Below, piece after piece: positions 54,258 through 64,000 of a DNA stretch of 64,000 nt; position 1 is the first letter of the stretch; each line of letters begins with the position of its first letter. The notes beneath the pieces are model-generated. The model searched no databases and was not told where the DNA came from. It saw only the letters and a list, made by a program, of their open reading frames with translations. Both the position numbers and the translations under genes were made by a program. Source of the DNA: Cyanobium sp. M30B3 (lineage in GTDB: Bacteria > Cyanobacteriota > Cyanobacteriia > PCC-6307 > Cyanobiaceae); contig CP073761.1 in NCBI GenBank assembly GCA_018399015.1, positions 1,798,001 through 1,862,000 of the forward strand, read 5' to 3'.

Positions 54258-54923
54258 TCATGTCTTCTCCCAGATGCTCTCCAGCTCAAGCACCAATCCC
54301 GGCAACATGTCGCCGCCCTCCAGACGCAGGGCGTTCTCCAGCCGCTGCGGTGCCGTTGGCACGCCGGCTTCGGGGCGGGCCGGCCAGATCTCCACGGCCC
54401 GCTGCTCCGGGAACAGCAGCCAACCCAGCTGGGCCCCATTGGCTTGGTAGACCTCCATCTTGCGGCGCAGGGCATCGGCGCCGCGGGGGCCTGCGTCGCT
54501 GGCACTGGCCAGCTCGATCACCAGATCGGGGCAGAGGGGTGGGAACGTGCGGCGTTGCTCAGGAGTGAGCGCCTGCCAGCGCTCCCGGCGCACCACGGCG
54601 GCATCAGGGCTGAGCACTGAACCATCAGCGAGGCGAAAGCCGGTGGAGCTGTCGAACACCTCCCAGCATCCCCTCAGATCAGCCAAGGACTGGAGCCGAG
54701 TCAGCAGGCGTGTGTTGCGGCGACCGGTCTCGCCTCCGGTAGGGGTCATCGTGATCAGCTGGCCATCGGCAGCGAGTTCCAGCACTGCGTCAGGGTTGGC
54801 CTCGCACACCTGCGCGAACTGCTCCGGGGACAGCCGCAGATCGTGCGGCAGCAGCAAGGGCGCCAAGCCGGAAACGGCAGCTTCGGGCGCGGCTGGAGCG
54901 GCAGCAGGTGGAGCGAACGTCAT
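54258..54923 (-). CDS. Uma2 family (DUF820) predicted endonuclease
   Basis: 221 residues. The family core is visible: LELAADGQLITMTPTGGETGRRNTRLLTRLQS, STGFRLADGSVLSPDAAVVRRERW, PLCPDLVIELASASDAG and LRRKMEVYQANGAQLGWLLFPEQRAVEIW. The PD-(D/E)XK catalytic residues are the Asp in SPDAAV and the Glu/Lys of IELASAS and RRKMEVY. Uma2 proteins are numerous in cyanobacteria, role unknown, and often near transposons or toxin-antitoxin genes. Start at 54923 chosen for the family N-terminus, following an Ala/Pro-rich tail. Confidence 0.85.
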   Translation of the reverse strand: MTFAPPAAAPAAPEAAVSGLAPLLLPHDLRLSPEQFAQVCEANPDAVLELAADGQLITMTPTGGETGRRNTRLLTRLQSLADLRGCWEVFDSSTGFRLADGSVLSPDAAVVRRERWQALTPEQRRTFPPLCPDLVIELASASDAGPRGADALRRKMEVYQANGAQLGWLLFPEQRAVEIWPARPEAGVPTAPQRLENALRLEGGDMLPGLVLELESIWEKT

Positions 54924-55046
54924 CTCCCCTGGGTGGCGGATCCTCAGCTTAAGCCGGCTCACGCCGCCGAACGTTTGTTCAAGCGCGGCCAGCCGCCGCC
55001 CTCCCGGCGGAACAGCAAGGCGTCGTCGTCGAGGGCGTCGCGATCC

Positions 55047-55445
55047 AGGTTCACCTTCAACGGCATCACCCGCTGCGAGAAGGGCAGCTACGCCCTGGTG
55101 GGCGGCGAGGAGCTGAGCGACGCCGAGCGCGACCAGCTGCTGGCGCTGTGCCGCCAGCGCCTGGGTGCTTTCCGCGATGACGCCGATCAGCGGCTCGATC
55201 AAAGTCCGGGTGTTCACCCGCGCCAGGGGCCGCTGCGAGTGCTGCGGCGCCGGCTGTTGCTCAGCAGACTCCGCACCAGCGGGCCCTGGAGGTGGACCAC
55301 ATCGTGCCCAGCAACCAGGGCGGCACAGGCGACCTCAGCAACCTGCAGGCCCTGTGCTTTCGCTGCAATGCCGGCAAGCGCGAGACGGGCTGTGTGTTCT
55401 ACGCGCTGGAGGGCAGCGGCCGGGTGCTGCTGGAAAACGAGCTGA
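55047..55445 (+). pseudogene. HNH-HIT gene fragment B
   Basis: Homologous to about 57270-57740 of the intact gene but with two internal deletions and at least two frameshifts: it covers NGITRCEKGSYALVGGEELSDAERDQLL, then RARGRCECCGA of the HNH domain, VDHIVP, SNLQALCFRCNAGKRE and finally GCVFYALEGSGRVLLENE. The linker before the HNH domain and the linker after it are lost. Not translatable as one protein. Confidence 0.8.
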
Positions 55446-55448
55446 GGA

Positions 55449-55718
55449 TCAGAGCCTGACAACCAATGCCTTCCGACTCAACTCAATGAGGACGTGACTT
55501 TCGAACAGGTGGATCAGCTCCGGCAGAGCACGAAGCAGCAACGCAGTGAGATCCGGATTGAAGACAACACGTTGATCACGATCCGCGATGGCGGAAATCA
55601 CCTGATCGGAGCTGCGATTGCCTGCTGGTAGATCAAGGGTATGCTGAACATCGCATCCCAATACCTCCAGAGGCCGAACGAGAGATCGAGGCAGCTGGGC
55701 ATCCAGCAGGATTCTCAT
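55449..55718 (-). CDS. DUF5615 PIN-like toxin, probably internally deleted
   Basis: 89 residues. The N-terminus MRILLDAQLPRSLVRPLEVLGCDVQHTLDLPAGNRSSDQVI is typical of DUF5615 PIN-like proteins with the first catalytic Asp in LLDAQLP. After RDQRVVF the usual TKDxDF region, with the second acidic residues, is missing, and the sequence resumes as NPDLTALLLRALPELIHLFESHVLIELS, a normal C-terminus. About 25-30 residues appear lost in frame. Partner of the DUF433 gene just upstream (overlap four bases). Likely inactive as a nuclease. Confidence 0.7.
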   Translation of the reverse strand: MRILLDAQLPRSLVRPLEVLGCDVQHTLDLPAGNRSSDQVISAIADRDQRVVFNPDLTALLLRALPELIHLFESHVLIELSRKALVVRL

Positions 55719-55948: not shown

Positions 55949-56046
55949 GGCGGTTCCCTGGCTTTTCCAGCCTAAGCGGCACAGAGGCTCATGACGATCA
56001 GCTGGATTTGGCGCTGACATGGGGGTCCTTGGTGGGTCTCCCCTTA

Positions 56047-56446
56047 CAAGTTCCACCCGCGTCACACCCCACACCAGCCCTCTCCTCCCAGGCCAGGATC
56101 CCCCCATGCCCCCGCCCCCCTCCGCCACCTACGAGCGCCTGCGGCACTACATCGCCGAACGCATGCGCATGAGCCACATCTACCAACCGCTGATGCTCGT
56201 GGAGCTGCTCGGGCGCCGCAGCCCGGCCCCGGCGCAGGACGTGGCCCGCCGGATCCTGGGCGAGGACGTGACCCAGATCGAGTACTACACCGAGCGCGTG
56301 AAGCGGATGGTGGGCAAGGTGCTCACCGGTAACGGCATCACCCGCTGCGAGCGGGGCACCTACGCCCTGGTGGGCGGCGAGGAGCTGAGCGACGCCGAGC
56401 GCGACCAGCTGCTGGAGGTCTGCCGCCAGCGCCTCGATGCCTTCCG
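56047..56446 (+). repeat. Direct repeat copy 1 (HNH-HIT 5' region)
   Basis: About 400 bases, near-identical to 56995-57396. It includes the upstream flank (ACAAGTTCCACCCGCGTCAC), the start codon and the first 110 or so codons of the HNH-HIT gene. The two copies flank the BrnT/BrnA pair. Confidence 0.85.
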
Positions 56447-56501
56447 CGGGCTACGCGCACAGAATGTCACCGACAGGGTCAGGAACCGTGAAGTGGCTTG
56501 A
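56106..56501 (+). pseudogene. HNH-HIT gene fragment C (N-terminal 113 residues)
   Basis: Starts with the same MPPPPSATYERLRHYIAER as the intact gene and matches it to RLDAFR (residue 113), then diverges into an unrelated 18-residue tail ending at 56501. Could still be translated as a 131-residue truncated protein, since its start and upstream sequence are intact. Lacks both the HNH and HIT domains. Confidence 0.75.
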
Positions 56502-56994: not shown

Positions 56995-57396
56995 ACAAGT
57001 TCCACCCGCGTCACACCCCGCACCAGCCCTGGCTTGACGGCGCCAGGATCCCCCCATGCCCCCGCCCCCCTCCGCCACCTACCAGCGCCTGCGGCTCTAC
57101 ATCGCCGAACGCATGCGCATGAGCCACATCTACCAACCGCTCATGCTGATGGAGCTCCTCGGCCGCCGCAGCCCGGCCCCAGCGCAGGACGTGGCCCGCC
57201 GGATCCTGGGGGAGGACGTGACCCAAATCGATTACTACACAGAGCGCGTCAAGCGCATGGTGGGCAAGGTGCTCACGGGCAACGGCATCACCCGCTGTGA
57301 GCAGGGCACCTACGCCCTGGTGGGCGGCGACGAGCTGAGCGACGCCGAGCGCGACCAGCTGCTGCAGCTCTGCCGCCAGCGCCTCGATGCCTTCCG
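56995..57396 (+). repeat. Direct repeat copy 2 (HNH-HIT 5' region)
   Basis: Second copy of the roughly 400-base repeat, near-identical to 56047-56446, here continuing into the intact gene. Differences are mainly synonymous or in the untranslated part. Confidence 0.85.
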
Positions 57397-58057
57397 AGAG
57401 CAACGGGGCGAGGGGGTGTTTGCCCACCGCAGCCGCCACCGCACCCCGATCAGCGGCTCGATCAAATACCGGGTGCTCACCCGCGCCCGAGGCCGCTGCG
57501 AGTGCTGCGGCGCCCATGAGCACCAGAGGGCCCTGGAGGTGGACCACATCGTGCCGAAGAACCACGGCGGCTCCGACGACCTCAGCAACCTGCAGGCCCT
57601 CTGCTTCCGCTGCAACGCCGGCAAGCGCGACACCGACTCCACCGACTTCCGCGGCCTGCAGGCCAGCTACGCCAGGCGCGAGGCAGGCTGTGTGTTCTGC
57701 GCTCTGGAGGGCAGCGGCCGGGTGCTGCTGGAGAACGAACTGGCGCTCTGCATCGCCGATGCCTACCCGGTGACGCCGGGCCACAGCCTGGTGATCCCCC
57801 GACGCCATGTGGCCGACGGGCTTGCGCTGCACCAGCCGGAGTGGAACGCGGTGGTGGAGCTGCTGAAGCAGCGGCGGGAGCAGCTCAGCGCTGCGGACAC
57901 CACGATCAGCGGCTGGAATGTGGGGTTGAACTCAGGCGAGGCGGCGGGGCAGACGGTGTTTCATGCGCACTGGCATCTGATTCCGAGGCGGGAGGGGGAT
58001 TGCGAGGAGCCTCGGGGTGGGGTGCGGGGGGTGATTGGTGAGAAGCAGGGATATTGA
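57056..58057 (+). CDS. HNH endonuclease-HIT domain fusion protein
   Basis: 333 residues, intact. Residues 1-120 form an N-terminal helical domain of winged-helix type (YIAERMRMSHIYQPLMLMELLGRR). Residues 140-200 are an HNH nuclease: RARGRCECCGA, EVDHIVPKNHGGSDDLSNLQALCFRCN, with two CxxC zinc pairs and the DH catalytic pair. Residues 210-320 are a HIT domain: GCVFCALEGSGRVLLENELA, YPVTPGHSLVIPRRH, FHAHWHLIPRRE with the His triad. The fusion recurs in bacteria and probably acts on nucleic acid or nucleotide ends; function unproven. The stop is five bases before the attC-like site. Four broken relatives lie upstream. Confidence 0.9.
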   Translation: MPPPPSATYQRLRLYIAERMRMSHIYQPLMLMELLGRRSPAPAQDVARRILGEDVTQIDYYTERVKRMVGKVLTGNGITRCEQGTYALVGGDELSDAERDQLLQLCRQRLDAFREQRGEGVFAHRSRHRTPISGSIKYRVLTRARGRCECCGAHEHQRALEVDHIVPKNHGGSDDLSNLQALCFRCNAGKRDTDSTDFRGLQASYARREAGCVFCALEGSGRVLLENELALCIADAYPVTPGHSLVIPRRHVADGLALHQPEWNAVVELLKQRREQLSAADTTISGWNVGLNSGEAAGQTVFHAHWHLIPRREGDCEEPRGGVRGVIGEKQGY

Positions 58058-58061
58058 TTGC

Positions 58062-58156
58062 GCTCTAACGCTCAAGATCAGCGGCGGGCCAGAATGGCAA
58101 GCTTGATACCAGATCCTGATATCCCGACCGCTGCATTCTGATGTTCGGCGGGTGTC
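58062..58156 (+). other. attC-like recombination site 1
   Basis: Imperfect palindrome just after the HNH-HIT stop. CTCTAACGCTCAAGATCAG at the left pairs partly with CTGATGTTCGGCG at the right, giving the R-L-L-R layout of integron attC. The left arm shares AACGCTCAAGATCAG with site 2 (60256). The right core GTTCGGC departs from the GTTRRRY consensus at one base, so the site may be degenerate. Placement right after a gene stop is typical of a cassette. Confidence 0.55.
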
Positions 58157-58202
58157 CGAGATAAGATCTTAAGTTGCCGTGGCAGGAAGCCAGGGTAGAG
58201 GC

Positions 58203-58946
58203 CTACACACACCGCAGTACGAGCCGGGCTGAGGCAGAGTGGAGTTCTTCAAGTTGCTCATTCCACAATTCTAATCTGATCAGTTCGGAACGCATATCGG
58301 GATAGCGCTGGTCGCTGTGTAATACTGTTGCACTGGTTGCAGAGTAATCAGAGCTGGGCTGACACTCATGTAGCAGACCACGAAGATGCGACAGGAGTAC
58401 GTTCCGCCGGCGCGTGGTCTGCTGCTCGGTGTAGCGCTCAAGCTTCTCCACCGCTTGAGAAAGCGATGATTGGATCGCCTCGCCTATTTCAAAGCGTACC
58501 TTGACCACACGTTCTGAGTCATTTAGATCAAGGACCTCTAAGGTTGCTCTACCCTTTCCTGAAGCCGGACGCAGTTGGTAAAGGCGGAACGTCAGATGAT
58601 CCGCTGGGTCGTCGATGTACGGATTGACGATCGGCTCAACCCCGACGTCATGGCCGCTCTTGGCACCATTGCAGCGCTTGCATGAGGGAAGAAGGTTTTC
58701 CCATTCAACGACTTGCTGAGCGTACAAACTTTTGCAGAAAAAGTGCTCAACTTCAACGTATTTACTCTCCTCTGATAAACGACATTCACAGTAGGCGCAC
58801 TTGCCATAACTAGTCCGAAGAAGAGCCCCTTTCAAGTCATCAAAGTTCCAGACCGAGGTGCCATTGGCAATATACTGTGCGGTTAAGTCTGTGACTCGGC
58901 TCGGTGCAAGACAGAGGGGAGTAAAAATTCGTTCAAGCCTAATCAT
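58203..58946 (-). CDS. HNH nuclease, Septu PtuB-like
   Basis: 247 residues. HNH motif: CAYCECRLSEESKYVEVEHFFCK, NLLPSCKRCNGAKSGHDV, with two CxxC zinc pairs and the EH catalytic element. The C-terminus is helical (EKLERYTEQQTTRRRNVLLSHLRGLL). It directly follows an ABC-type ATPase gene with an 8-base overlap. ATPase plus HNH is the PtuA/PtuB layout of the Septu antiphage system. Start at 58946 (MIRLERIFTPLCLAPSRV) was chosen. More AT-rich than the core genome, so probably acquired. Named by layout, not by full-length comparison. Confidence 0.8.
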   Translation of the reverse strand: MIRLERIFTPLCLAPSRVTDLTAQYIANGTSVWNFDDLKGALLRTSYGKCAYCECRLSEESKYVEVEHFFCKSLYAQQVVEWENLLPSCKRCNGAKSGHDVGVEPIVNPYIDDPADHLTFRLYQLRPASGKGRATLEVLDLNDSERVVKVRFEIGEAIQSSLSQAVEKLERYTEQQTTRRRNVLLSHLRGLLHECQPSSDYSATSATVLHSDQRYPDMRSELIRLELWNEQLEELHSASARLVLRCV

Positions 58947-60126
58947 ATTCGACCGGCGTGATGGAGTTAAGCTGTAGGCGAAGCAACTTGCGGATGTGAT
59001 TCTCCGGATGTAATGAACGATCAAGTTCACCGAAGACTTCCTCCGCCTTTGTGTAGTTGTCCTCAGCTACTGCTTGAGAAAAAGCATCCAGAAGATCACG
59101 TAGCACCTCCGTCCGTGTGTCGTGCATACCCATCACGTCTGTAAGTACCTCATCAAGAGTCCAGCCCTTGAATCCAAGTGGAGTTTTAGGAAGCGGACGC
59201 AAAGCTACCGTCCGATCGCGAAACTCCAGTGCGATGATTTGATTCGGCTCCGCCGCTTGGATGATGTGAGGACTGTGTGTGGTTACTATGAATTGGATCA
59301 TAGGAAAGATTCTTGTAAGCACTCCTGCGATACGAGCTTGCCATTCCGGATGCAGATGCAATTCCAATTCGTCAATCAAGACAACACCTGCAAAATCCTC
59401 GACCCGGCTAGGAACTCCTGTAAATCGGAACTCCACTTCCTTGATGATTCCGAACAGTATGGACAAACACGACTTGAAGCCAGAAGAGAGATATTCGTAG
59501 TAGATATTTCCTGCAGGAGTAGATACAAGAATTTCATTTGTTGTCGCATCTACATGCGAAAAAGTGTAATCCGGATTCAACTCGGCAAAGCAGCGCTTCG
59601 CAAGTGCGAAGTTGGCAAGCTTCTCAGGCGTTAACGCTCGTTCGTGCGCTGAGTATAAATATCGGTTTACGAACCAATTCTTTACGTCATCAAGGATGAC
59701 CCCCGTCTTTGCCTCCTGATAGAGGTTCCTTTGATTCTTTTCGGTATCGCGACTGACCGAATTAAGCGGTGTGTAAACAAACGTACGAGTCGTCTTCAGC
59801 GACAGTAGGAAAGGTGACCAGTCGTGCTTTCCAGATATTTGTGCGCGCTGTGAGGGCTCGAACTCTGCGAAGCCGTAAGCAACCTCGGTGCACAGGTCCT
59901 CATGTTCCACAGTAGCCGTGACTGTGCTGCGTTCGTGTCCAACATGGCGCTTCAAGATCGATGTTTCTCCAGCAGCAAAACAGTGCGCCACAGATTCCAA
60001 TACCGTGGTTTTGCCAATACCATTTGGCCCACACAGGATGTTCATGCTGGGGTCGAAGAGTATTCGGAGGTACTCAATGCCGCCGACTGCTGTGATCTCG
60101 ATTGTCTCTATTTTCACGGGATACAC
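58939..60126 (-). CDS. AAA/ABC-type ATPase, Septu PtuA-like
   Basis: 395 residues. Walker A CGPNGIGKTTVLES at residues 33-41; an ABC signature-like LSSGFKSCLSILFGI; Walker B VVLIDELELHLHPEWQ; the D-loop/H region TTHSPHIIQAAEPNQII. The RecF/SMC-like AAA_21 or OLD-type head, without a Toprim domain. Upstream of PtuB and in the same operon. In Septu the ATPase senses phage and triggers the HNH nuclease; the specific target here is unknown. No reverse transcriptase is nearby, so not a retron. Confidence 0.85.
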   Translation of the reverse strand: MYPVKIETIEITAVGGIEYLRILFDPSMNILCGPNGIGKTTVLESVAHCFAAGETSILKRHVGHERSTVTATVEHEDLCTEVAYGFAEFEPSQRAQISGKHDWSPFLLSLKTTRTFVYTPLNSVSRDTEKNQRNLYQEAKTGVILDDVKNWFVNRYLYSAHERALTPEKLANFALAKRCFAELNPDYTFSHVDATTNEILVSTPAGNIYYEYLSSGFKSCLSILFGIIKEVEFRFTGVPSRVEDFAGVVLIDELELHLHPEWQARIAGVLTRIFPMIQFIVTTHSPHIIQAAEPNQIIALEFRDRTVALRPLPKTPLGFKGWTLDEVLTDVMGMHDTRTEVLRDLLDAFSQAVAEDNYTKAEEVFGELDRSLHPENHIRKLLRLQLNSITPVEYD

Positions 60127-60251
60127 CTCACAGCTTGTGGCAATGCCATAGCGAGAATTGGGAAGGCTGCTGTCGGCAACAGTAGGATAAGTACGCGCAA
60201 GAGTTCAGAATAACCGCAGAGCAGCTTGACTCGGCGACATGGGGGGACTCC

Positions 60252-60343
60252 ACCGAACGCTCAAGATCAGAAGCGGGCGGCAAGCTCGGCAAAGCCAGAT
60301 ACTTATGCTCCCGTCTTCTGAATCTTGATGTTATGCGGTGTCT
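60252..60343 (+). other. attC-like recombination site 2
   Basis: Left arm ACCGAACGCTCAAGATCAGAAGCGGG pairs with right arm CCCGTCTTCTGAATCTTGATGTTATGC, giving a stem of about 17 pairs with two extrahelical bases in the right arm, the structural hallmark of attC. The right core GTTATGC is one base from GTTRRRY. Lies downstream of the Septu-like genes. The better of the two sites. Confidence 0.65.
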
Positions 60344-60634
60344 TCTTGAAGCACAGTATGCCATCAAGCCATACCGGTCAGCCGAGGCAACGTACCAGTG
60401 CTTCTCTGGAAGCTAGCTGTAACCTCATCTTGTGGACAGGCTACAACATTACGACGAGTAAAGCACGTTCTCTGCTTTTCTATTAGGATATGAGAGTACT
60501 AACTCGCTTTCGCCCCTCCCCAAGGCCAGTAACAACGGCCACATCTAGACAGGGTAACCCAACTGTCACTCGCACCACTTGACAATTCGCCAAGGCATGC
60601 GAGAAAACTCACTGATCTTTACCAAGAGCTAGCC

Positions 60635-60862
60635 ATGCGTACAACCCAAGCCGAGTTTGAGCGGATCGCTCGTCGTGTGATCTCTTTCATCGAAGATAAG
60701 CATGCGCCTGTGCCTCTAAATGAAATAGAGCAGTTTTTCGCTCATGAGAAACTATCAATCTCAGTGGGCAGAGTTATCTTGCAGTTGCTTGCGGATCGAA
60801 AGCTGTATTTAACCGAAGACAGGAAGGTTATGGTAGCCAGTCAGCAGATGGCATTGGCTTGA
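60635..60862 (+). CDS. Small winged-helix-like protein upstream of the dGTPase
   Basis: 75 residues: MRTTQAEFERIARRVISFIEDKHAPVPLNEIEQFFAHEKLSISVGRVILQLLADRKLYLTEDRKVMVAS. Predicted winged-helix fold (helix, helix, beta-wing LYLTEDRKVMVA). Its stop is nine bases from the GTG of the dGTPase gene, so both form an operon. Could be a regulator or sensor partner of the HD hydrolase. AT-rich compared with the core genome. Family not known to me. Confidence 0.7.
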   Translation: MRTTQAEFERIARRVISFIEDKHAPVPLNEIEQFFAHEKLSISVGRVILQLLADRKLYLTEDRKVMVASQQMALA

Positions 60863-60871
60863 TTTCTCCAA

Positions 60872-62197
60872 GTGACGCCATCACGAGAACAACGGCAGAG
60901 TGAAGAGTCTGTATTCGAAAGAACTCCTTTTGAGGTCGATCGGGATAGAGTACTTTACTCCTATGAATTTAGACGCTTAGCAGGAGTCACGCAAGCCGCA
61001 AACGCTTCTGAAGGGCCAAACTTGCACAATCGTTTGACACATAGCCTTAAGGTTGCCCAGGTTGGACGCAGATTAGCCCAATATCTTAAGTTGCGCTTTC
61101 CTGTCGAGGTTGATCAATGTGGTGGTCTTGATGTTGATGTTGTCGAGTGCGCGTGCTTGGCTCATGACCTAGGCCACCCACCTTTTGGCCACGCAGCCGA
61201 AGATGTATTAAATCGGTGCCTTGAAGCCATTGACCCCGACCTGGGATTTGAGGGAAATGCTCAGTCGTTCAGAGTTGTCATAAATAGGTCCATTAGGCGG
61301 ACAAGCAGTGATGGTCTGAATTTAACTTCTGCTACGCTTAACGCGATTCTCAAGTATCCTTGGGCCCAGGCAGACGAAAAGGGCAAGTTGAAACACAAAT
61401 GGGGATATTATCCAGAAGAGACTGAAGCATTCAAGTTTGCTCGAATGCATGTTCCTGATAGCCGCAAGAATTCTCAGACTCTTGAGGCAGCAGCCATGGA
61501 TTTGGCTGATGACATTGCCTATTCCGTGCATGATGTAGATGACTTCTACCGAACTGGGATGATTCCACTTGATCAACTGATCAGTGGAACTGAAGCCCGA
61601 ATCCACTTTTTGGAATGGGTTTGTTGCCATCCAAAGGCTGATGCGTTGGGCATTTCACGCTTAGATATAAGCACTAAGGGCAATGAATATTTTGAAAGTT
61701 TGAAAGCCGCCGTTTCGCTTAGAGCGCCATTTGCCAATACCCGTGAGCAGCTACAAGATCTCCATACGCTAACTTCCAGCCATATAACACGGTTCCTAGG
61801 CTGCCACAAAGAGCTTCCTGCCATTGAACTTGACCCAGCTGCTGATACCCAGATTGTTCGCCCTCAATGGCTCAGTTTCGAAATTATGATCTTAAAACTG
61901 CTAATGCAGCGATATGTCTATCAGGACAACAGCCTGCTTGCGCAACAACATGGACATAAGCGATTAATCGAAGAAGTCTTTCACACTTTGGTGGAATCAA
62001 TAATGGTCCATGGCAGTGATGGAATGGTGCCAAGAAGATTTGAGCTTGAAGCACAAGAAGCAAAAGGAGAGAAGCTACTCGCTGGTCGACTTGCAGCGGA
62101 TATCGTCTGCTCCATGGACGAGCCGCAGATTCTAATGCTCTATCAGAGACTTTTAGGTATACGGCCCGGAATTCTTGCGGAACGGCTCATCCACTAG
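60872..62197 (+). CDS. dGTPase-like HD-domain triphosphohydrolase
   Basis: 441 residues. The HD metal site reads NRLTHSLKVAQ (His57), CLAHDLGHPPFGHAAED (His98, Asp99) and LADDIAYSVHDVDD (second Asp). This is the dGTP triphosphohydrolase (Dgt) family, which hydrolyses dNTPs to nucleoside and triphosphate; related enzymes defend against phage by emptying the dNTP pool. The start is GTG (MTPSREQRQSEESVF). Strongly AT-rich compared with the core genes and followed by about 300 AT-rich bases. Defence role is inferred from family and context. Confidence 0.85.
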   Translation: MTPSREQRQSEESVFERTPFEVDRDRVLYSYEFRRLAGVTQAANASEGPNLHNRLTHSLKVAQVGRRLAQYLKLRFPVEVDQCGGLDVDVVECACLAHDLGHPPFGHAAEDVLNRCLEAIDPDLGFEGNAQSFRVVINRSIRRTSSDGLNLTSATLNAILKYPWAQADEKGKLKHKWGYYPEETEAFKFARMHVPDSRKNSQTLEAAAMDLADDIAYSVHDVDDFYRTGMIPLDQLISGTEARIHFLEWVCCHPKADALGISRLDISTKGNEYFESLKAAVSLRAPFANTREQLQDLHTLTSSHITRFLGCHKELPAIELDPAADTQIVRPQWLSFEIMILKLLMQRYVYQDNSLLAQQHGHKRLIEEVFHTLVESIMVHGSDGMVPRRFELEAQEAKGEKLLAGRLAADIVCSMDEPQILMLYQRLLGIRPGILAERLIH

Positions 62198-62345
62198 TAT
62201 TGAAATGTGTATTAGTTATTGGCCTTAGTCCTCCTGCTTGCTCAATTAGGATCGGGTTAGGTATATCTAATGCAGGGCCAATATTTTCTTGAGGAGCATA
62301 GGAAGGATAGATGCCTGGATAGCCGCATAACTCTTTATTGGACGG

Positions 62346-62501: not shown

Positions 62502-63105
62502 CTACACAAGGTCTGCAGGGCTGCGCACTCCGAGTGGGCCGCGGTTGAGCACATGGGTATAGATCATGGTGGTGCTCACATCCTTGTGGCCCAGGAGCTC
62601 CTGGATGGTGCGGATGTCCTGTCCCCGTTCCAGTAGGTGTGTTGCAAAGGAGTGGCGGAACGTATGGCAACTGGCGGCCTTGCTCACTCCGGCTTCCATC
62701 ACGGCGTGTTTCACCGCCTTCTGCACCACGCTTGGATCCAGATGATGGCGGCCTTGGGCACCTGATTCCCTGTCGTGCCAGCGATGCTGCTGGGGGAACA
62801 CCCATTGCCAGCCCCATTCCCGGCTGGCGTTTGGGACTTTCCGCGCCAGTGCGTAGGGCATTACCACGCTTCCCCACCCAGCGGCCAGGTCGCCATGGTG
62901 CAGGCTGCGCACCCTCAGCAGGTGCTCCTGCAGAGCCGGCACCAGGCTCTGGGGCAGCAGGGTGAGCCTGGCGCATGCGGTGAAATCGGAGAAAGCGGCG
63001 CAGCCACTGCTCGTAGGTCTTCACCGTGCGGCGGGCGTAATGGCGGGTTTGCAGCAGTTCGCGATAGCGCTGGATCAGACCGGGTGGCTTGCTTTCTACA
63101 GCCAT
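62502..63105 (-). pseudogene. Integron integrase (IntI-like) with internal deletion and frameshift
   Basis: Tyrosine recombinase relic of about 200 residues; IntI is normally about 320. The N-terminal part, [42 protein letters not shown], is the SAM-like domain. It then jumps, with a frame change near 62975, to [26 protein letters not shown] and WQWVFPQQ. The C-terminus is intact: [47 protein letters not shown], with the HxxR, H and Tyr residues. The middle third, including the first catalytic Arg, is missing, so no activity is expected. [10 protein letters not shown] and GVRSP mark integron integrases over phage ones. Confidence 0.8.
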
Positions 63106-63188
63106 GGCATCAAAAGGAGGGGAATGCCCTACAGAGTTGCCCAACGGATTTGCTACGAATGGTGCAGCGTCCTGCCGGTGCCCCAGCC

Positions 63189-64000
63189 ATGCCTCCGCAG
63201 GATCTCTCTCCCGGCCTATACGACCACCCCCTCAGCGCTGCAGTTCATCAGGCCCTGGCTGGCAGCGAGGACTCCCTGCACCAGCTCCAACCCCTCGACC
63301 CCGCCGAAGCCCCACAGCGTCTGGCCCGCTACCTCCAACAACTGAGCGAGACCGCCCTGGCCTCGTTGCCGGAAGCCCAGCGTCAGCAACAGCAGTTGGC
63401 CCTGGTGAACCAGATCGTGGCCCTGCTCCAGCAGCAAGCACCCAACGCCATCAGCTCGGGCGACCAGCTCCACCCCAGCGCGCGGCTTTTGCAGGAGCTG
63501 CGAGCCGCGCCCCTCCTGCCCAATGAGCCACCGCTGGTCCGCCCCCTGATCCCCCTGGCCGACGGCACCCTGCTGATCAATGCCCCCAGTGAGCCCAGCA
63601 TCGGTCTAGCCCTGCAGGCGGAATGCCCGTCAGCCGATCGCATCGACCTCCTCTGCGCTTTCATCAAGTGGAGCGGGCTGCGCCTGCTGCAGGAGTCGCT
63701 GGCGGCGCACCTGGCGGCCGGCCGGCCCTTGCGGGTGCTCACCACCGTGTACATGGGCGCCACCGACCGCAAGGCGCTCGACTGGCTGGTGGAGCGCGGT
63801 GCCCAGCTGCGCGTCAGCACCGACACGCGCCGCACCCGCCTCCATGCCAAGGCCTGGCTGTTCCACCGCGCCAGCGGCACCAGCACGGCCTACATCGGCT
63901 CGTCGAACCTCTCCTCCGCGGCCCTGGTGGACGGGCTGGAGTGGAACGTACGCCTGGCGGCCCTGGAAACGCCGGCGATGCTGGCCAAGTTCCAGTCCAC
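63189..64000 (+). CDS. Phospholipase D-like domain protein, N-terminal part (helicase-associated)
   Basis: The first 270 residues of a protein running off the right edge. Start ATG reads MPPQDLSPGLYDHPLS. After a helical N-terminal region comes a PLD-like nuclease domain: VRPLIPLADGTLLINAPSEPSIG, IDLLCAFIKWSGLRLL, LTTVYMGATDRKALDWL, and the HKD motif RLHAKAWLFHRASG with the usual GSSNLSSAALVDGLEWNVR. This arrangement matches the front of the PLD-DEAD helicase-DUF3427 family; only the first part is seen. It is divergent from the integrase relic, 83 bases apart. Such helicases often accompany HNH-HIT genes, from memory. Confidence 0.75.
   Translation, partial: MPPQDLSPGLYDHPLSAAVHQALAGSEDSLHQLQPLDPAEAPQRLARYLQQLSETALASLPEAQRQQQQLALVNQIVALLQQQAPNAISSGDQLHPSARLLQELRAAPLLPNEPPLVRPLIPLADGTLLINAPSEPSIGLALQAECPSADRIDLLCAFIKWSGLRLLQESLAAHLAAGRPLRVLTTVYMGATDRKALDWLVERGAQLRVSTDTRRTRLHAKAWLFHRASGTSTAYIGSSNLSSAALVDGLEWNVRLAALETPAMLAKFQS

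Follow-up and report, generated by a model that had tools for sequence, protein, structure and literature searches.

What do two overlapping minus-strand open reading frames (60126-58939 and 58946-58203) encode at positions 58203-60126 of a 64-kb stretch of the Cyanobium sp. M30B3 genome (the window, analysed whole), and how did they come to lie there? The sequence-only reading took them for an AT-rich, Septu-like PtuA/PtuB pair in a cyanobacterium, flanked by attC-like sites that linked a defence system to integron mobility. Septu itself was reportedly first described among the Doron systems. We are confident that the pair is a Septu type I system captured as a gene cassette in a cyanobacterial inverted integron, where it sits beside a second defence cassette. 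The genome carries photosystem reaction-centre genes, which confirm a cyanobacterial host, and the features of the locus are collected in Table 1.

Table 1. Predicted features of the Septu cassette locus, in window coordinates.
Feature	Position	Strand	Basis and remarks
attC of ptuAB cassette	58063..58149	-	R''=GCCGAAC, R'=GTTAGAG; covariance model R1 E=3.2e-18
Cassette 2: ptuA-ptuB + attC, 2.19 kb	58069..60257	-	Crossover to crossover
ptuB, HNH nuclease of Septu, 247 aa	58203..58946	-	PADLOC PtuB1 match and motifs
ptuA, SMC/ABC-like ATPase of Septu, 392 aa	58939..60117	-	GTG start; alternative GTG at 60126; PADLOC PtuA1 match
attC of dGTPase cassette	60252..60336	-	R''=GCATAAC, R'=GTTCGGT; R1 E=4.7e-21
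Cassette 1: dGTPase + 75-aa ORF (both antisense to cassette) + attC	60258..62330	-	5' end/R'' complement
75-aa ORF upstream of dGTPase	60635..60862	+	Within stretch conserved in G006, another genome of the genus
dGTP triphosphohydrolase, HD family, candidate anti-phage dGTPase, 441 aa	60872..62197	+	PADLOC PDLC02374, TIGR01353
attI region, crossover between G62331 and T62330	62331..62501	-	Homology to the same genome's intact integron
Integron integrase pseudogene	62502..63084	-	TIGR02249 in two frames; nucleotide comparison with intact copy

The profile search by which the sequence-only reading had proposed to check its assignment, run here with PADLOC, places both proteins in Septu and not in another ATPase/HNH family. 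PtuA matches the PtuA1 profile PDLC00305 over its full length (E=3.1e-147, 489 bits, profile positions 2-390 of 392), as does PtuB the PtuB1 profile PDLC00342 (E=2.9e-93, 310 bits, positions 1-246 of 247). The overlapping ATPase-HNH layout also holds, as an 8-bp overlap of the ptuA stop (TATGATTAG) with the ptuB ATG. Translation of ptuA probably starts at the GTG at 60117 rather than at that at 60126, since the PADLOC profile is likewise 392 residues long and its match begins at residue 5 of the longer frame. By inspection, PtuA carries a Walker A motif (GPNGIGKT), an LSSG signature, a Walker B motif (VVLIDE) and a THSPH H-loop, and PtuB carries CAYC, EVEHF and WENLLPSCKRCN, with the H-N-H residues present; the ATPase and HNH motifs thus look intact. 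As a system ptuAB is an ordinary Septu, with no protein feature that marks a new type.

Homologous ATPase and HNH proteins serve as retron effectors, and the pair could in principle be a retron type I-A effector module that lost the retron part by which it is normally held in check (reverse transcriptase and msDNA). The retron I-A models in PADLOC do match both proteins, and the PDB matches comprise Septu PtuA (8ee4) and retron PtuA/PtuB entries, with most of the solved relatives being retron effectors and the closest solved PtuA and PtuB both distant from the pair. Those retron I-A matches reach only 151 bits for the ATPase and 64 bits for the HNH protein, however, against 489 and 310 bits for the Septu models, and the NCBIfam retron Ec78 PtuA and PtuB models score far under their cut-offs. 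A search for reverse transcriptase (PF00078, RVT_1) found none in the whole 3.18-Mb single-contig genome, where an E. coli control gives one. The cassette borders allow for a leader of only about 140 bp, in which we recognised no remains of a retron, and Rfam gave no match between 45000 and 64000. We therefore reject the retron origin, which we consider extremely improbable, on the genome-wide absence of reverse transcriptase and the poor retron-model scores; the high Septu scores, together with a genome lacking detectable reverse transcriptase, assign ptuAB by sequence to Septu type I.

To locate the recombination sites we used a covariance model, R1, built from 10 attC sites of the same type at other loci (nine from the family's other genomes, one from elsewhere in this genome), with the window's two sites left out. 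R1 finds nine matches in the whole genome and exactly two in the 64-kb window, both on the minus strand and bracketing ptuAB, so the attC-like flanks noticed earlier are recovered by a model that had not been trained on them. The two sites have AACGCTCAAGATCAG in common. The site at 60252 folds far better than its shuffles (z about -5, 0/200 shuffles). The site at 58063, the more diverged of the two, is not far better than shuffles when taken alone (z -1.0 to -1.7); because it is weak as a free-standing fold, its identification rests on the R1 match and the R-box match. On these sequence features both attC sites are genuine, each with its R and L boxes and a predicted hairpin. No third attC was found leftward, and GTTAGAG, the expected R-box complement, is absent between 45000 and 58063.

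Beyond what the sequence-only reading had proposed, the locus also contains a broken integrase, an attI and a second cassette. The integron-specific profile TIGR02249 matches the pseudogene in the window and an intact intI in the same genome (G000:326590-327522). Compared with the latter, the pseudogene has an internal deletion of about 370 bp and a frameshift near 62968. The larger of its aligned blocks extends into attI and shows 88% nucleotide identity. This homology continues past the intI stop and through a non-coding stretch to end at AAAGAG/TTA, a G/TT crossover. Within the attI region lie repeated TGGTTCAC...GTGAACCA palindromes, common to the intact integron, that are possible IntI-binding repeats or a hairpin. 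In the intact integron (L028:11578-17694; G000:321577-327693), cassette genes follow the 3' end of intI and share its orientation; the window array has the same polarity, its attI likewise 3' of intI and its cassettes running in the intI direction. By this arrangement, the window locus is an 'inverted' integron whose own integrase is dead.

Reading from attI, cassette 1 is followed directly by cassette 2, with borders defined to the nucleotide (Table 1). The 5' end of cassette 1, TTATGC, exactly complements the R'' of its own attC (GCATAAC), and that of cassette 2, TTCGGT, complements its own R'' (GCCGAAC) with one G-T pair. Between the ptuB stop and its attC are 53 bp, as expected for a sense cassette gene. 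The AT-richness of the pair is confirmed at the level of the cassette, whose GC content is 0.506 versus 0.657 for the window.

The first cassette encodes a dGTPase (PADLOC PDLC02374, E=2.5e-83; TIGR01353 over its cut-off) and a 75-aa ORF that has no family match and might regulate the dGTPase or act together with it. This dGTPase occurs in two of 13 genus genomes. The second of these, G006, has the same cassette at 79% nucleotide identity, with an identical start at G/TTATGCGGCTA and a same-type attC at its end (R1 E=2.5e-23); there too the dGTPase runs antisense to the attC, indicating that its orientation belongs to the cassette. Its upstream neighbour in G006 is an attC-like site, versus attI here. 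The same 5' border at the crossover next to a different neighbour indicates that cassettes in these genomes move, and this one cassette in two contexts lends comparative support to cassette excision or integration by IntI. For ptuAB we searched 388 genomes of the class and found no second cassette copy at E<=1e-30, and its own mobility is therefore inferred from its borders. The closest relatives found for it come from a Methylococcaceae MAG and from Pseudomonas sp. TNT3 (57-65% identity for both proteins); a scan and R1, a lineage-specific model, found no attC around either.

The cassettes could also be drawn on the plus strand, with an HNH-HIT gene (57056-58057) and the dGTPase as sense genes and ptuAB as a reversed passenger. 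The dGTPase is indeed on the plus strand, and the HNH-HIT gene ends only a few bp from the attC at 58063. Yet the strand of the R1 matches, the position of attI and the polarity of the intact integron all indicate the minus strand, and the G006 dGTPase is also antisense to its attC. The HNH-HIT gene, for its part, looks like resident DNA, given its GC content of 0.69 and its relatives, often fragments, in eight of 13 genus genomes. We regard this arrangement as very improbable, and reject it on attI, the attC strand and the G006 arrangement. Ahead of the HNH-HIT gene lie truncated near-copies of it, at about 56019-56501 and 54843-55490; a search for a named family matching the fusion found none, and HNH-HIT-like fragments recur in the same 8/13 genomes.

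Whether the minus-strand array is of any use to its host is a separate matter. It may be a decayed, silent island, its ptuAB and dGTPase genes stranded behind a dead integrase, promoterless and non-protective. The broken intI fits such a state, as do the second place of ptuAB in the array and a promoter scan in which nothing promoter-like rose above shuffles; that scan, on the other hand, does not cover all cyanobacterial promoter types. Against decay, both ptu frames and the dGTPase extend over their full length and keep their motifs, and any use of the dGTPase, which runs against the array, would require a promoter of its own. We consider a silent island unlikely, though it carries real weight.

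We propose that IntI captured the ptuAB cassette at attI, and that later capture of the dGTPase cassette displaced it to second place. Since the local integrase has been lost, the array would now stay as it is unless mobilised in trans by the intact IntI; the proposed link to integron mobility stands with the caveat that movement today would need this integrase elsewhere in the genome. By analogy with studied relatives, PtuA and PtuB would form one complex, in which the ATPase part would sense infection and the HNH part would then cut nucleic acid, halting phage production. In studied Septu relatives the ATPase and HNH sites are both needed for defence, and an E. coli system cuts host tRNA-Tyr in the variable loop and shows abortive-infection behaviour (PMC13096335); for another Septu, the reported target, in a passage citing that work in PMC11555353, is nicked phage DNA. 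Putative defence by ptuAB is, on this analogy, probably abortive infection.

To the right of the intI pseudogene is an ORF of about 1,100 aa (63123-64000, on to L033:14357) whose PADLOC match is to a type IV methyl-directed restriction enzyme (PDLC03659, E=6e-270), with a partial copy of its C-terminus at L033:15240-15790; its presence makes the locus part of a wider defence neighbourhood.

Elsewhere in the genome, the intact integron holds a fused PARIS AriAB (E=4e-201), a DndB/DpdB-like DGQHR protein and two further genes (317 and 234 aa) that are candidate new defence genes. Genes adjoining attC sites at other loci encode BstA (E=3e-122), AbiTii (E=6e-42) and a HicB-like protein. Two attC-flanked arrays (L091:4190-7413 and L032:8140-11310) contain AbiTii, a STAND-like ATPase, BstA and a 296-aa gene. 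The remaining cassettes of this genome have no PADLOC match. In another genus member a gene adjoining the integron resembles PifA/KAP, and for most sampled cassette genes there PADLOC matches are absent or weak. A PADLOC match denotes sequence similarity and not function, and the defence content given here is a gene listing. With Septu, the dGTPase, PARIS, BstA and AbiTii as the defence cassettes in mind, we tentatively suggest, at somewhat less than even chances, that chromosomal inverted integrons of this genus are dispersed defence libraries, in which a single intact integrase serves several small arrays in trans, including some whose own integrases are dead.

Neither Septu nor the idea of integrons as defence libraries is new, and the cyanobacterial inverted-integron setting is a modest extension. 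Work on defence cassettes in integrons has so far dealt mainly with Vibrio and with mobile integrons; the present locus adds a complete cyanobacterial case, in which a two-gene defence system is matched to exact cassette borders and a neighbouring defence cassette has moved between genus genomes. It makes testable the idea that one intact integrase serves several decayed arrays, and, with cyanophages in view, it points to integrons as an entry route for defence genes into these genomes.

Compared with known systems, the pair shares with Septu type I (PtuA1/PtuB1) the two-gene operon of ATPase then HNH, overlapping frames, full-length matches and no reverse transcriptase, but falls in the PDLC00305/PDLC00342 branch, distant from the solved E. 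coli proteins. The effectors of retron type I-A (Ec78/Eco7), which also go by the name Septu type II, are homologous ATPase and HNH proteins; here the pair comes without reverse transcriptase and with much lower scores to their profiles. The inverted integrons of Treponema have an atypical intI/attI arrangement, with an intI branch that clusters with a Synechococcus intI (PMC3607928). Like the locus described here, they have intI transcribed toward attI and in the cassette direction (PMC3607928), whereas here two cassettes are left, the local intI is a pseudogene and an intact integrase lies elsewhere in the genome. Finally, recent work on Vibrio and on mobile integrons (Darracq 2025, Getz 2025, Kieffer 2025; reviewed in PMC12409362) describes integrons as defence libraries. 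Common to those libraries and to our case are phage-defence genes carried as attC cassettes; ours differs in its cyanobacterial host, its small dispersed arrays and its two-gene, 2.2-kb defence cassette.
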